Source of the DNA: Syntrophaceae bacterium
GTDB taxonomy: Bacteria; Desulfobacterota; Syntrophia; Syntrophales; UBA2185
Length of the DNA stretch: 34,736 bases
Direction: 5' to 3'
Assembly: GCA_003142295.1 (NCBI GenBank)
Contig: PLLV01000235.1
Span: forward strand, 33,856-68,591
Part shown: positions 9,772-34,058 of the stretch, one piece after another
Position numbering within the stretch: the first letter of the stretch is position 1
Layout: each line of letters opens with the position of its first letter
Made by a program: the position numbers and the translations under genes
Notes under the pieces: generated by a model
Told to the model about the DNA's origin: nothing
The model's database searches: none
Seen by the model: only the letters and a program-made list of their open reading frames with translations

Positions 9772-9794
9772 TCAATCAAATAACAAAAGAATAC

Positions 9795-9938
9795 CGATGG
9801 ATGTGTGGAAGAGGGGTTAGATGCCCCCGCTGCCCCGCAGCCGTGAAGGGAACGAAAACCCGAAAAGCCACTGTCGTGAAAATGCATGACGGGAAGGCGG
9901 GTGAGTAGGGAGCCCGAAGCCGGAAAACCAATCCATCG
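9795..9938 (+). promoter_or_regulatory. Cobalamin riboswitch 1
   Basis: All the diagnostic pieces of a cobalamin aptamer are present in order: GCTGCCCCGCAGCCGTGAA, GGGAACGA, GCCACTG, GGGAAGGCGGG and the B12-box-like AAGCCGGAAAACC. The closing stem P1 pairs CGATGGAT (9795-9802) with ATCCATCG (9931-9938), 8 bp. Just downstream, CCCTCGAGGG (9943-9952) can fold on itself and bury the purine-rich ribosome site, suggesting translational control. The first ORF after it is decayed, so its effective target is probably tonB-btuFCD. Confidence 0.93.
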
Positions 9939-9961
9939 TGGTCCCTCGAGGGGGGAGTGCT

Positions 9962-13153: not shown

Positions 13154-13984
13154 ATGTCCATAATCAAACTTGAACAGATAGGATTCAAATACAACGAGCA
13201 CCAGGTTCTCAAGAATGTCTCTTTTGAGGTACGAAGGGGCGAGTTCATGGGAATCCTCGGCCCCAACGGCTCCGGCAAAACAACCCTGTTGAATGTTATC
13301 GATGGCATCCTCATACCCCAGGAAGGAGAGCTATGGATAAACGGTACATCCTGCAATAAGCTCAAAAGGGAAAATCTGGCGAAGATTATCGCTGTCGTTC
13401 CCCAGGAATCCCTGATGATCTTTCCCTTCACTGTTCAGGAAATCGTTTTAATGGGACGGGCGCCGCATTTAGGCAAATGGAGGTTTGAAGGAGAAACAGA
13501 CTTCAAAATTGCCCACCAAGCCATGGAGATGACAGATACCCTTTCTTTAATGAACCGCAGCATGAATGCCTTAAGCGCTGGTGAGCGTCAAAGGGTCCTG
13601 ATTGCGCGAGCCCTTGCCCAGCAGCCGCAGATTATGCTGCTTGATGAGCCTACGGCCTTTTTGGACATCAGGCATCAGATTGACTTTTTCGATTTGATAA
13701 AGGCGCTGAATAAAAACCAGACTCTCACGGTAATTGGAGTCACACACGATATCAATTTGGCATCGCTTTATTGTGACAGGATTATTCTCTTGCGTGACGG
13801 TCATATTCACTGCATGGGAAGTCCTGAAGAAGTAATAGCAGAATCACATATCAGGGAAGTTTACGAAACCAATGTAACAGTAGACAGAAATCCGGTGACC
13901 GGTCAGCCACGGGTCACCCTTTTGAGTTCACATCCATCAGAGGGAGGAAGCCGGTCCAACTCCGGCGCTGCCCCGCAACTGTGA
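13154..13984 (+). CDS. btuD: Vitamin B12 ABC transporter ATPase BtuD, 3' end fused into riboswitch 2
   Basis: 276 residues. Walker A GPNGSGKTT is at 36-44, then LSAGERQRVLIARAL, Walker B MLLDEPTAFLD, and the switch His in GVTHD. The fold ends around VTGQPRVTLL (~residue 257), where relatives usually stop. The last ~16 residues (HPSEGGSRSNSGAAPQL) are encoded by the 5' half of the second cobalamin aptamer, and the TGA stop lies inside the conserved aptamer core. The added tail is probably not functional protein. Confidence 0.92.
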   Translation: MSIIKLEQIGFKYNEHQVLKNVSFEVRRGEFMGILGPNGSGKTTLLNVIDGILIPQEGELWINGTSCNKLKRENLAKIIAVVPQESLMIFPFTVQEIVLMGRAPHLGKWRFEGETDFKIAHQAMEMTDTLSLMNRSMNALSAGERQRVLIARALAQQPQIMLLDEPTAFLDIRHQIDFFDLIKALNKNQTLTVIGVTHDINLASLYCDRIILLRDGHIHCMGSPEEVIAESHIREVYETNVTVDRNPVTGQPRVTLLSSHPSEGGSRSNSGAAPQL

Positions 13985-14085
13985 GCGGAACGAAATCCAC
14001 ATAATGCCACTGATTTTTCCTGTAAGGAATCTCGGGAAGGCGTGGATGTAGGGGAAAGCCGCAAGCCAGGACACTCGTCTGATGG
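13934..14085 (+). promoter_or_regulatory. Cobalamin riboswitch 2 (overlaps btuD, precedes btuB)
   Basis: The conserved elements are GCGCTGCCCCGCAACTGTGA, GCGGAACGA, GCCACTG, CGGGAAGGCG and AAGCCAGGA. P1 pairs CCATCAGA (13934-13941) with TCTGATGG (14078-14085), 8 bp. The first 51 bases are coding for the BtuD C-terminus. The leader then runs CCCGAGGGGGAGAGGAG to the receptor ATG at 14128, so ligand folding may hide that ribosome site. No promoter is seen in front of it, so it probably controls the second half of one long transcript. Confidence 0.94.
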
Positions 14086-14127
14086 ACCTAATCACTACGA
14101 TCCCGAGGGGGAGAGGAGAAACGTCAG

Positions 14128-31136: not shown

Positions 31137-31278
31137 GACTTCTCTCCTTTGAGAAAATCAAACCGCTCTACAATAGAATCATTCAAGGCTACAGCACAGC
31201 CCTTCCTATTTTCAGGCTTAGTAAATTTCAAACCTTCTATCGTTGCACCGGCCATCAGCCCGGCATGGCAGTCTCCTG

Positions 31279-31953
31279 CTATTTCACGGTATACCCGCGG
31301 CCATCGAGGCAGGCACCCATCGCCCGCTGATAGTCCGCGTTTTTCTGGGTCATCTGAGCCTGGGGGATGCCTCCGGGCGGCTGAGTCGGATCATAGCCAG
31401 CCTGGCCCACACCCCAGCGGTGGCATTCGTATCGATCATTGGCCTGCTGCTGTTCGCTTTGCCCTTTGCGTGGATAGATGAACAATTGTGCTGCTGACGG
31501 TGGTGGCTCAATAACGTCGCCTTTTGGCGGTTCAACTACCATATAGCCGTCCGGGCTTTGAGCGTAATAGGCTTCGTTGGCATAGTAGTAAGGCATGCCG
31601 CCTACCCAGATAGTCGTGTAATACGGAGGCAAAAAAGGGACTACAATACCGATCGGGGGAGCAATGATTTCGAAGCGCGGACCATAAGGACGGTACCAGA
31701 CCCCTCCGAAGAAGAAGAGCCGCGTCCCGCGGTGAACCACAACGTGGTGGCCTGTGGGCAGCGCATCAACGAAATGGCCGCGAGAGGGATAGTGATGGTT
31801 ATGATTATAACGCGAATCCACGAATTCGTGAGCGCGGAAATCCCGCTGATCTGCGTTCACCACCTGCATGAACCCGAACAACACGACGGCTAAGAACATT
31901 GCCAACATGAGGCCTACTGTAAAGAATCGACTCCTATTGAGAATATATGACAT
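31279..31953 (-). CDS. Exported protein, Tyr/Pro-rich (DUF6515-like) plus a Cys-containing C-terminal module
   Basis: 224 residues. A signal peptide or membrane anchor covers residues ~12-34 (VGLMLAMFLAVVLFGFMQVV). The middle, FFFGGVWYRPYGPRFEI...PPIGIVVPFLPPYYTT...GGMPYYYANEAYY, is the Tyr/Pro-rich pattern of DUF6515-type envelope proteins. From ~157 the C-terminal module reads FIYPRKGQSEQQQANDRYEC and ends RAMGACLDGRGYTV, with two Cys. The same module occurs, split, in the next gene. CGGAGG lies 8 bases before the ATG. The function is unknown, probably envelope. Confidence 0.82.
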   Translation of the reverse strand: MSYILNRSRFFTVGLMLAMFLAVVLFGFMQVVNADQRDFRAHEFVDSRYNHNHHYPSRGHFVDALPTGHHVVVHRGTRLFFFGGVWYRPYGPRFEIIAPPIGIVVPFLPPYYTTIWVGGMPYYYANEAYYAQSPDGYMVVEPPKGDVIEPPPSAAQLFIYPRKGQSEQQQANDRYECHRWGVGQAGYDPTQPPGGIPQAQMTQKNADYQRAMGACLDGRGYTVK

Positions 31954-31995
31954 GACTATTGCCTCCGTAAACTCAGGATAGAATCTTATTGTCCC

Positions 31996-32619
31996 TCACT
32001 GAACGCTATACCCGCGGCCTTCAAGGCAGGCAGACATGGCCCGCCGGAAGTCGCCCGCATTGCCTTCATATCGAGGGTCGAGCGCTTGATCGCGGTTGGC
32101 ATAGGCTTCCTGCAATTGCTGGGCATACTGCTGTCTTGATGCGTCTGATGCAGCGCCGGCAACGGCCCCCGTTCCTGCGCCGATCAATGCACCGCCCGCT
32201 GCGTGTCGCGGTCCGGCTATTAACGCGCCGAGCACCGCACCTGCCACAGCGAGGACGGCGGTATCATGACCGGGTGGGGGCATGGGCACCACTTTAACGC
32301 GCCTCTGAGGCGGGATGGACGACTTACTCGGATCGAAGCCGGTTTGTGTCATTGCCCAGTTGTAACATTCATAGTGGTCACGTGACTGTTGCTCGGTTGT
32401 CTGGCCGGCTTTCGGATAAAAATAGACTTGGGTAATGGGAGCTCTTGGGCTTCCGCCGGTATCTCCGGGCATGGGTCGTGAAACCTCGCGATACGGCGCA
32501 GGATAACATCCGGCCAACGCCAAGACTGTGAAGACAAGGAAAAGCCGAAGACCAGCTCTTGATACCCGCTTTTCAGGTACATGTTTGTCTGTCAACACCT
32601 TACTCATTGACATCATCAT
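31996..32619 (-). CDS. Lipoprotein with glycine-zipper domain
   Basis: 207 residues. The lipobox LALAGC marks a lipoprotein with Cys at ~38. A first half-module FYPKAGQTTEQQSRDHYECYNW comes at ~68-90. A glycine zipper (VAGAVLGALIAG, AAGGALIGAGTGAVAGAA) occupies ~125-160, and the second half-module RAMSACLEGRGYSV closes the protein. Glycine zippers insert in or pack against membranes. AAGGAG precedes the ATG. It lies just upstream of the DUF6515-like gene on the same strand (42-base gap), so they are probably one operon. Confidence 0.85.
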   Translation of the reverse strand: MMMSMSKVLTDKHVPEKRVSRAGLRLFLVFTVLALAGCYPAPYREVSRPMPGDTGGSPRAPITQVYFYPKAGQTTEQQSRDHYECYNWAMTQTGFDPSKSSIPPQRRVKVVPMPPPGHDTAVLAVAGAVLGALIAGPRHAAGGALIGAGTGAVAGAASDASRQQYAQQLQEAYANRDQALDPRYEGNAGDFRRAMSACLEGRGYSVQ

Positions 32620-32842
32620 TTACATTCTCCTTCGTAGCGGAACGCCACAAAAACCATCGAGACAAAGAGGACGGCTACTCGCGTTACTGCTAATTTCTTT
32701 ACTCTTTTCATGACCATTAAATCTGTTTTATGCATCTAAAGCAAAGGGTGTGCCAATTTAATCATGTTAGAGTGTAACACATTGAATTTAAAGAAGCATT
32801 TTTCATTTACGGGAGATCGGGACAATTCTCTCCCGGACAAAA

Positions 32843-32895
32843 GGTGGATAGAAAGTATACGATTTAAATACCCACCTGTGAACAAAATATCCACC
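32843..32895. repeat. Inverted repeat GGTGGATA-N37-TATCCACC
   Basis: Perfect 8-bp arms at 32843-32850 and 32888-32895, separated by 37 bases. The half-site resembles the inner part of a DnaA box (TTATCCACA), though the flanks differ. Confidence 0.6.
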
Positions 32896-33208
32896 CGACA
32901 ATGGAAAGTCAATGGGGGCAAACTTGAATTCAGGCTGCCCGCATGTAATCGTGAAAAGCCAAAAAAAGTGGAAAGATACGAATATCTATGTGAGAAAAGG
33001 ATTGTTTTTTTCCAATTTCATTAATATTAAAAATTTAAATGTATAGAAAATGAGATATTGTAGAGGTGTGTCATAGGTTAGGTGCGTAGAATCTGCATTG
33101 ATACAACATTCACACATTCCGCAAAAAATCCTGATCATTTCTGTCGATGTAATCTTTTTGCTGAATAATTAAATTTCAACAGTACCCTATTCATGACTAA
33201 ATAATTTT

Positions 33209-33263
33209 AAGTGGATACTTTTTATTCAATTGGATATTACAGTTGCATACTTATTATCCACTT
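33209..33263. repeat. Inverted repeat AAGTGGATA-N37-TATCCACTT
   Basis: Perfect 9-bp arms at 33209-33217 and 33255-33263, again with exactly 37 bases between. The inner half-site GTGGATA is the same as in the pair at 32843; the spacers are unrelated. Confidence 0.6.
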
Positions 33264-33391
33264 TCATCCTTGATGGCGCTAAGAAAAAGGATTAAAAAAA
33301 CACAACGATTTGTAGATAATCAAGTTATATGGATAGCCTAACGGGTATGAAGCAGTTTTTCACATTCATATTCTTTGAAAGTTGATTCACG

Positions 33392-33690
33392 GTGCGATAA
33401 CAACCAGCCTGAAGTCGGTTGTAAGTCACGAGAGAAAACAAATCCCGAAAGGGAGGGATGAAACAGAGTGTCGGCCTAAGGGTTGTAGGGTCGCCAGCAA
33501 ACTGAAAGATGGCAATTTTAAGATTCTTGCTTACACCTCCTACTTATCATTTATGGTAAGTGGTAATCATGATAGGTGTTATAGAGGCAAGGCAGGAGAA
33601 CGGGCTTTCACCTGGGTCATAGAACCCTTCTTGTAGTGTGTTCCCTACAAGTCAGCAAGTTTAGGTTCAAAATTGAGGTGATGATTACCG
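33392..33690 (+). mobile_element. 5' part of a group II intron ribozyme (domain I)
   Basis: It begins with the group II 5' consensus GTGCG. CAACC...GGTTG forms the first stem, then come AAGTCACGAGAGAAAAC, GGGATGAAACAGAGTGTCGG and CTAAGGGTTG, in the style of bacterial domain I. Further on, GGCAGGAGAACGGGC and a perfect 7-bp hairpin CTTGTAG...CTACAAG (33630-33651) fit later domain I helices. No reverse transcriptase and no domain V follow, so the intron is truncated. The 84-codon ORF over it is not a gene. The 3' limit is approximate. Confidence 0.55.
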
Positions 33691-33722
33691 CTTGGAGTCA
33701 TCTTAATGAACATCCTCAAGTC

Positions 33723-33759
33723 CCCTCCCATATCGATTGCTATTTCCGATATGGGAGGG
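33723..33759. repeat. Perfect 13-bp inverted repeat (hairpin)
   Basis: CCCTCCCATATCG (33723-33735) and CGATATGGGAGGG (33747-33759) with an 11-base loop. It lies between the truncated intron and the truncated radical SAM fragment, as expected for a terminator or a transposon end. No T-run follows on either strand. Confidence 0.7.
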
Positions 33760-33802
33760 CTCAGATGCATCTTATTGTCTTGTCCAGTTTTTGGGGAGAG
33801 GC

Positions 33803-34058
33803 TCACATCTCGCGAATTGCAGAAATAAGCTGTTGATATCCGTTAACATAAGTTTTCGTCTCGAAGGCATCCATATTATCTACGTTCCGGATGAATAACC
33901 CGATCAAGCGGGGGCCAAAATCTCCGATGAGACCTGCCAGCCTCTCCATGCTGTGCTTCTCAAGCAGATCAACGATCTTCATCTCATGGCGAGGGGAGAC
34001 CATCCCTGCCACATAATCAAGCCCGATAGGATAAACAGGTGTAGGACTATTTTTTCCA
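33803..34058 (-). pseudogene. Fragment of a B12-binding radical SAM protein
   Basis: The frame reads TPVYPIGLDYVAGMVSPRHE, then MKIVDL, DFGPRLIGLFIRNVDNMD and YQQLISAIREM, which matches the N-terminal cobalamin-binding (Rossmann) part of B12-dependent radical SAM enzymes. The first beta strand is missing because the upstream gene ends there. A stop follows REM, so the radical SAM domain is absent. Residues upstream of SPTPV in the track ORF belong to another frame of the neighbour. Confidence 0.6.

Follow-up and report, generated by a model that had tools for sequence, protein, structure and literature searches.

Two inverted repeats in a gene-free stretch

The window (i.e., the whole 34.7-kb stretch of DNA that we analyzed) contains two inverted repeats that share a half-site and a gap length, and they raise the question of which protein, if any, would read them. 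An exact scan of the window for GTGGATA-N37-TATCCAC placed them with their starts 367 bases apart, as follows.

32844..32894, minus strand: site 1, 51-bp candidate ZraR-type UAS (PWM score, 36.2), facing a minus-strand promoter
33211..33261, plus strand: site 2, 51-bp candidate ZraR-type UAS (PWM score, 61.4), in the opposite direction to site 1

The equal geometry reported by the first-pass annotation is exact, and the pattern was absent from all 100 dinucleotide-shuffled versions of the window. The genome-wide count which that annotation had proposed returned only these two GTGGATA/TATCCAC pairs in 3.28 Mb, even when gaps of 20 to 50 bases were allowed. The surroundings are also as described there: the region around both sites is AT rich (28 to 38% GC), and no credible gene lies from 32620 to about 33800. 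Its statement that the spacers are unrelated, on the other hand, does not hold, since after reverse complementation of site 1 they agree at 22 of the 37 positions (shuffle P of about 2e-4); without reverse complementation, 15 agree. Because the spacers are related in this manner, the two sites are evidently diverged copies, facing outward, of a single asymmetric 51-bp element rather than half-site pairs with random filling.

Rfam returned no RNA family at site 1 or site 2, and its low-scoring matches (CRISPR-DR60, TCV_H5, and others) were chance. Elsewhere in the window, it identified cobalamin riboswitches at 9782..9950 (68 bits) and 13888..14096 (84 bits), the latter preceding a TonB-dependent receptor gene; a FecCD-type permease and a CobB/CobQ-like enzyme are encoded near them.

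Anatomy of the 51-bp array

We searched 155 genomes of the order for the pattern TATCCAC-N75..105-TGGCACN5TTGC and found it in 20 of them, whereas the reversed pattern, used as a control, gave 2 matches. Alignment of the loci with this motif-spacer-promoter pattern revealed that a full 51-bp array is common upstream of TATCCAC (consensus, CTGGATACTTTTTAnCCAACTGGATACCnCAnTTGGATACnTATTATCCAC). The array consists of two partly degenerate GGATA-N5-TATCC palindromes with centers 32 bp apart, the left one being degenerate on its inner side, and an additional TGGATAC half-site between them. It therefore shows the tandem arrangement of dyad-symmetric sites, spaced by about three helical turns, that characterizes an NtrC-type UAS.

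A PWM was built from 14 foreign sites; the search pattern dictated its last seven columns and left the other 45 free, so that part of each score arises by construction. With this matrix, site 2 scored 61.4 and site 1 scored 36.2, while the foreign (zraP) sites ranged from 49 to 72 and the maximum in 150 shuffles of the local region was 3.5. Exact-pattern matches in viral and genome collections, none of which scored above 22.2, were apparently chance. No paper reporting the motif letters was found in the literature searched, which did not extend to subscription papers; the operator sequence is apparently undescribed, and it is of a known kind of regulatory site. In this way, a spaced inverted repeat spotted by eye could be traced to an established type of site.

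Site 1 and its predicted sigma54 promoter

Site 1 faces a -24/-12 promoter and two genes on the minus strand.

32740..32756, minus strand: predicted sigma54 -24/-12 promoter TTGGCACACCCTTTGCT, score 25/26, 87 bp downstream of site 1
31996..32619, minus strand: first operon gene, product lipoprotein-like (by eye), 207 aa, with a glycine-zipper region (Pfam PF05433/PF13441)
31279..31953, minus strand: second operon gene, DUF6515 protein, 224 aa (PF20125, E = 2.4e-18)

The score of TTGGCACACCCTTTGCT is the best in the window, and 30 Markov-shuffled versions of the full window gave none as high; its distance from site 1 falls within the roughly 70 to 150 bp at which a sigma54 promoter follows an NtrC-type UAS. 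The product of the first gene matches PF05433/PF13441 at E values of 1e-4 to 3e-4, below the curated cut-offs, and its orthologs in relatives are up to 84% identical; the DUF6515 gene starts 42 bases past it on the same strand. The orthologous promoters of four relatives (G134, G125, G151, and G002) have for the most part preserved the -24/-12 boxes, the inner ATA element, and the outer half-sites, whereas the far upstream flanks have diverged. G004 has a gene that is 84% identical but no such UAS upstream, which implies that control by the site is not universal.

The stretch from 31267 to 32972, comprising the glycine-zipper operon and its candidate UAS, shows 72 to 88% DNA identity to copies (L264, L265, and L262) in genomes of other families. 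This is closer than expected across families and may reflect either horizontal transfer or mis-binned contigs.

Linkage to zraSR and distribution in the order

In G011, the genes divergent from the site encode a ZraS-like kinase and a ZraR-like activator, the latter with receiver, sigma54 AAA+, and Fis-type HTH_8 domains. ZraR and ZraS were the best NCBIfam models for the two proteins, both below the curated cut-offs; since the activator reached 577.7 bits against a cut-off of 760 for the ZraR equivalog, we regard it as ZraR-like and not as a proven equivalog. The ZraR ortholog of the window genome (G000:C32:46921..48333) is 75% identical to this NCBIfam-scanned G011 protein, and its own zraP-zraSR locus carries a UAS scoring 68.1 with the promoter CTGGCACAGCCCTTGCT 96 bp away. 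The arrangement expected of ZraPSR, with zraP divergent from zraSR and the site between them, was found in this locus, in G011, and in many other genomes; it belongs to the home locus and not to sites 1 and 2. At most loci, the downstream gene is ZraP/Spy-like and the divergent gene encodes a ZraS-like kinase, the typical home-locus site lying between these two, 73 to 96 bp before a sigma54 promoter. Two genomes of the order have an exact match upstream of a ZraP/Spy-like gene, 93 to 94 bp before the strong sigma54 promoter TTGGCACAGCCGTTGCT.

An absence of conservation in relatives, which the first-pass annotation had named as grounds against its own reading, is the opposite of what we observed: a sequence-only model of the site matched in 116 of the 155 order genomes. 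ZraR orthologs (E ≤ 1e-150) were found in 116 order genomes as well, 101 genomes having both, 15 the site only, 15 ZraR only, and 24 neither (Fisher P of about 1e-8, uncorrected for relatedness). For each genome in which a listed site shared a contig with the ZraR gene, the two were paired; at least 71 genomes had them 1.67 to 2.06 kb apart, a distance of about the length of zraS. In a phylum sample of 297 genomes, only two outside the order matched at E ≤ 1e-6, both with altered length.

Among 36 distinct sites from the window genome and related genomes, 32 are followed by a sigma54 promoter at 73 to 96 bp, with the distances grouped around 74, 84, and 95 bp; part of the 36 came from the 75-to-105 gap search, so that the spacing range, but not the clustering, is partly due to selection. 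The clusters agree with a repeat of about 10.5 bp (vector strength, 0.68; broad peak), as expected for an activator that needs the same face of the helix.

Taken together, these results make it very probable that an NtrC-family activator uses the sites as enhancer-type UASs; the ZraR ortholog of this genome is the most likely candidate. The site anatomy, the promoter, the conservation, and the zraSR linkage can be read from the sequences themselves, and it is from the linkage that we infer ZraR as the binding protein. The signal, phosphorylation, binding, and activation might proceed as follows: the ZraS sensor kinase would detect envelope or metal stress and phosphorylate ZraR, ZraR dimers would occupy the site and form an AAA+ ring, and looping would bring the ring to sigma54-RNA polymerase waiting at the -24/-12 promoter, which would thereby be opened. 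Site 1 would then drive the glycine-zipper/DUF6515 operon, and site 2 would probably be a relic that has lost its promoter, or else a distal auxiliary enhancer.

Site 2 and its surroundings

Site 2 matched the model at E = 8.5e-12 in its own genome and is 87% identical over 54 nt to the zraP UAS of the same genome. No recognizable sigma54 promoter was found within 200 bp downstream (best score, 14/26), and site 2 thus differs from an NtrC-type UAS in this respect. One candidate remnant was noted.

33357..33373, plus strand: possible sigma54 promoter remnant TTTTCACATTCATATTC, 95 bp from site 2 (weak, post hoc)

This sequence stands where a promoter of site 2 would be expected from the spacing; it retains CACA and lacks both the GG and the GC elements, and its reading as the decayed promoter of site 2 is a weak hint obtained after the fact. 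The relatives that share site 1 have no site 2, and homology with them stops upstream at 32755..32972.

We favor the view that site 2 is probably a relic. Next to it we place, tentatively, a distal auxiliary enhancer of the site 1 promoter that would raise local ZraR by looping over about 450 bp, which would be compatible with ZraR acting at site 1. Enhancers of this class generally work at a distance and in either orientation, site 2 outscores site 1, and it has no promoter of its own; however, the relatives with site 1 have one site only, their homology ending where stated above, and in G061:C127 both members of an outward-facing pair are followed at the usual spacing by a promoter-like sequence. 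This latter pair (L374 977..1293) lies between Spy-like and OmpH/Skp-like genes on one side and an outer-membrane barrel-like gene on the other, as identified by eye.

Short dispersed repeats of the order, arranged as a mosaic, make up the sequence from 33371 onward.

33371..33519, plus strand: gene-free element of about 140 nt, 73 to 92% identical to copies at at least 13 other places in the order
33531..33646: dispersed repeat of the order
33644..33806: dispersed repeat of the order (with the preceding one, 79 to 89% identical to copies)
33723..33759: hairpin CCCTCCCATATCG/CGATATGGGAGGG within the repeat at 33644..33806

The first element, of which a second, partial copy is present at G000:C32:38633, aligns with a conserved hairpin, ACAACC...GGTTGT, in which 8 of the 12 predicted pairs show at least one compensatory change each; the covariation term is small. 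It matched no Rfam family and is possibly an undescribed structured RNA or part of a mobile element. The final 36 bases of the repeat at 33644..33806 recur in many genomes. A c-di-GMP-type riboswitch and a group II intron fragment were also considered downstream of site 2, and Rfam gave no support for either; no reverse transcriptase was apparent near the inspected repeat copies.

Alternative explanations

The main binder of site 1 might be another NtrC-family paralog and not the ZraR linked to zraSR, in which case site 1 would still be a UAS for a sigma54 activator. About 18 proteins in the window genome match the ZraR AAA+ domain, so another activator could bind; moreover, site 1 scores below the zraP sites (36.2 versus 49 to 72), and 15 genomes have the motif without ZraR at E ≤ 1e-150, some of them maybe owing to assembly gaps. 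We nevertheless consider a paralog unlikely, given that at least 71 genomes carry a site at zraSR itself and that half-sites and promoter spacing are the same at both kinds of locus.

The first-pass annotation had taken the equal geometry to suggest selection by a DNA-binding protein. It was right in this, as a sequence-specific binder is supported, and wrong in the candidates that it named. Its DnaA site or minor replication origin has very little to recommend it: a single base separates TTATCCAC, found in one arm of site 2, from a DnaA box, but this likeness is limited to that arm, TTATCCAC occurs just once in the window, the GC-skew check revealed no clear inflection at the sites, and the entire 51-bp array is conserved beside sigma54 promoters and zraSR, with which it travels. 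The several TTATNCACA boxes, skew inflection, and origin genes of an origin were not found in the window, and dnaA and dnaN were not among the Pfam-checked genes, a subset of the window ORFs. Its other candidate, the terminal repeats of a mobile element lost from between the sites, is just as improbable; the two copies are mutually inverted, but at least 71 genomes have the array upstream of zraS, and the loci inspected each carry it as a single site. Chance pairing of short inverted repeats is negligible, because the scores of both sites (36 and 61) exceed the highest value from the shuffles (3.5). The 14 fixed bases by themselves are nevertheless frequent: two very large collections each contain more than 100 such stretches.

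Predicted targets

Apart from the operon at site 1, sites were predicted before the following genes of the genome.

C32: zraP (site-model match)
G000:C212:33552..33602 (coordinates of the site), just left of the window: MdtA/MdtB/MdtC-like RND pump operon, 615 bp downstream of the site
C27: gene resembling the DUF6515 partner (product read by eye)
C35: second ZraP-like gene (product read by eye)

The site before the pump operon has a non-standard promoter, CCGGTATATTTCTTGCT, at 74 to 75 bp, which is kept in G001 and G002. All of these predicted targets have envelope functions, and together these genes may form an envelope-stress regulon that includes an MdtABC-like efflux pump. The array thus offers a searchable operator, with predicted targets, for a sigma54 stress regulator in an uncharacterized order. 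A wider and rather speculative reading is that one sigma54 two-component system controls such a regulon throughout the order (ZraP/Spy chaperones, an MdtABC-type pump, and glycine-zipper, DUF6515, and outer-membrane proteins) via an undescribed five-half-site operator, with promoter-less orphan copies such as site 2 serving as distal enhancers or ZraR decoys.

Comparison with known systems

In Escherichia coli, ZraR binds the zraP-zraS spacer (PMC8249747, PMC7657598) and is reported to be nearly a single-target regulator by gSELEX (PMC8249747), whereas several promoters carry the site here. The divergent zraP/zraSR layout is the same. The spacer in E. coli K-12 has two GAGT-N7-ACTC palindromes with centers 31 bp apart (32 bp in the array of this order), which precede the promoter TTGGCACGGAAGATGC (TTGGCAC...GC), and the layout relative to a sigma54 promoter is likewise shared. 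The half-sites differ, being GAGT/ACTC in E. coli and GGATA/TATCC in this order, the conserved middle half-site is extra to this order, and the E. coli zraP-zraS region scores -26.5 with our motif and does not contain the same operator. With the architecture the same and the sequence different, the site would work like the ZraR enhancer.

At glnA, the NtrC enhancer precedes a sigma54 promoter and is built of palindromes in tandem, about 32 bp apart; it resembles the array in these features and differs in sequence, in signal, and in having no middle half-site. The NorR enhancer has more than two binding elements upstream of its sigma54 promoter, namely, three equal palindromes, in contrast to the two palindromes and a single half-site found here. 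The pairing of a Spy-type chaperone with an MdtABC-type pump, which the predicted targets would link under a sigma54 system, exists in E. coli under the unrelated regulator BaeR, which jointly controls a Spy/CpxP-type chaperone and an MdtABC-type pump. BaeSR and CpxAR, however, use OmpR-family regulators at sigma70 promoters, whereas the regulator predicted here is a sigma54 activator.
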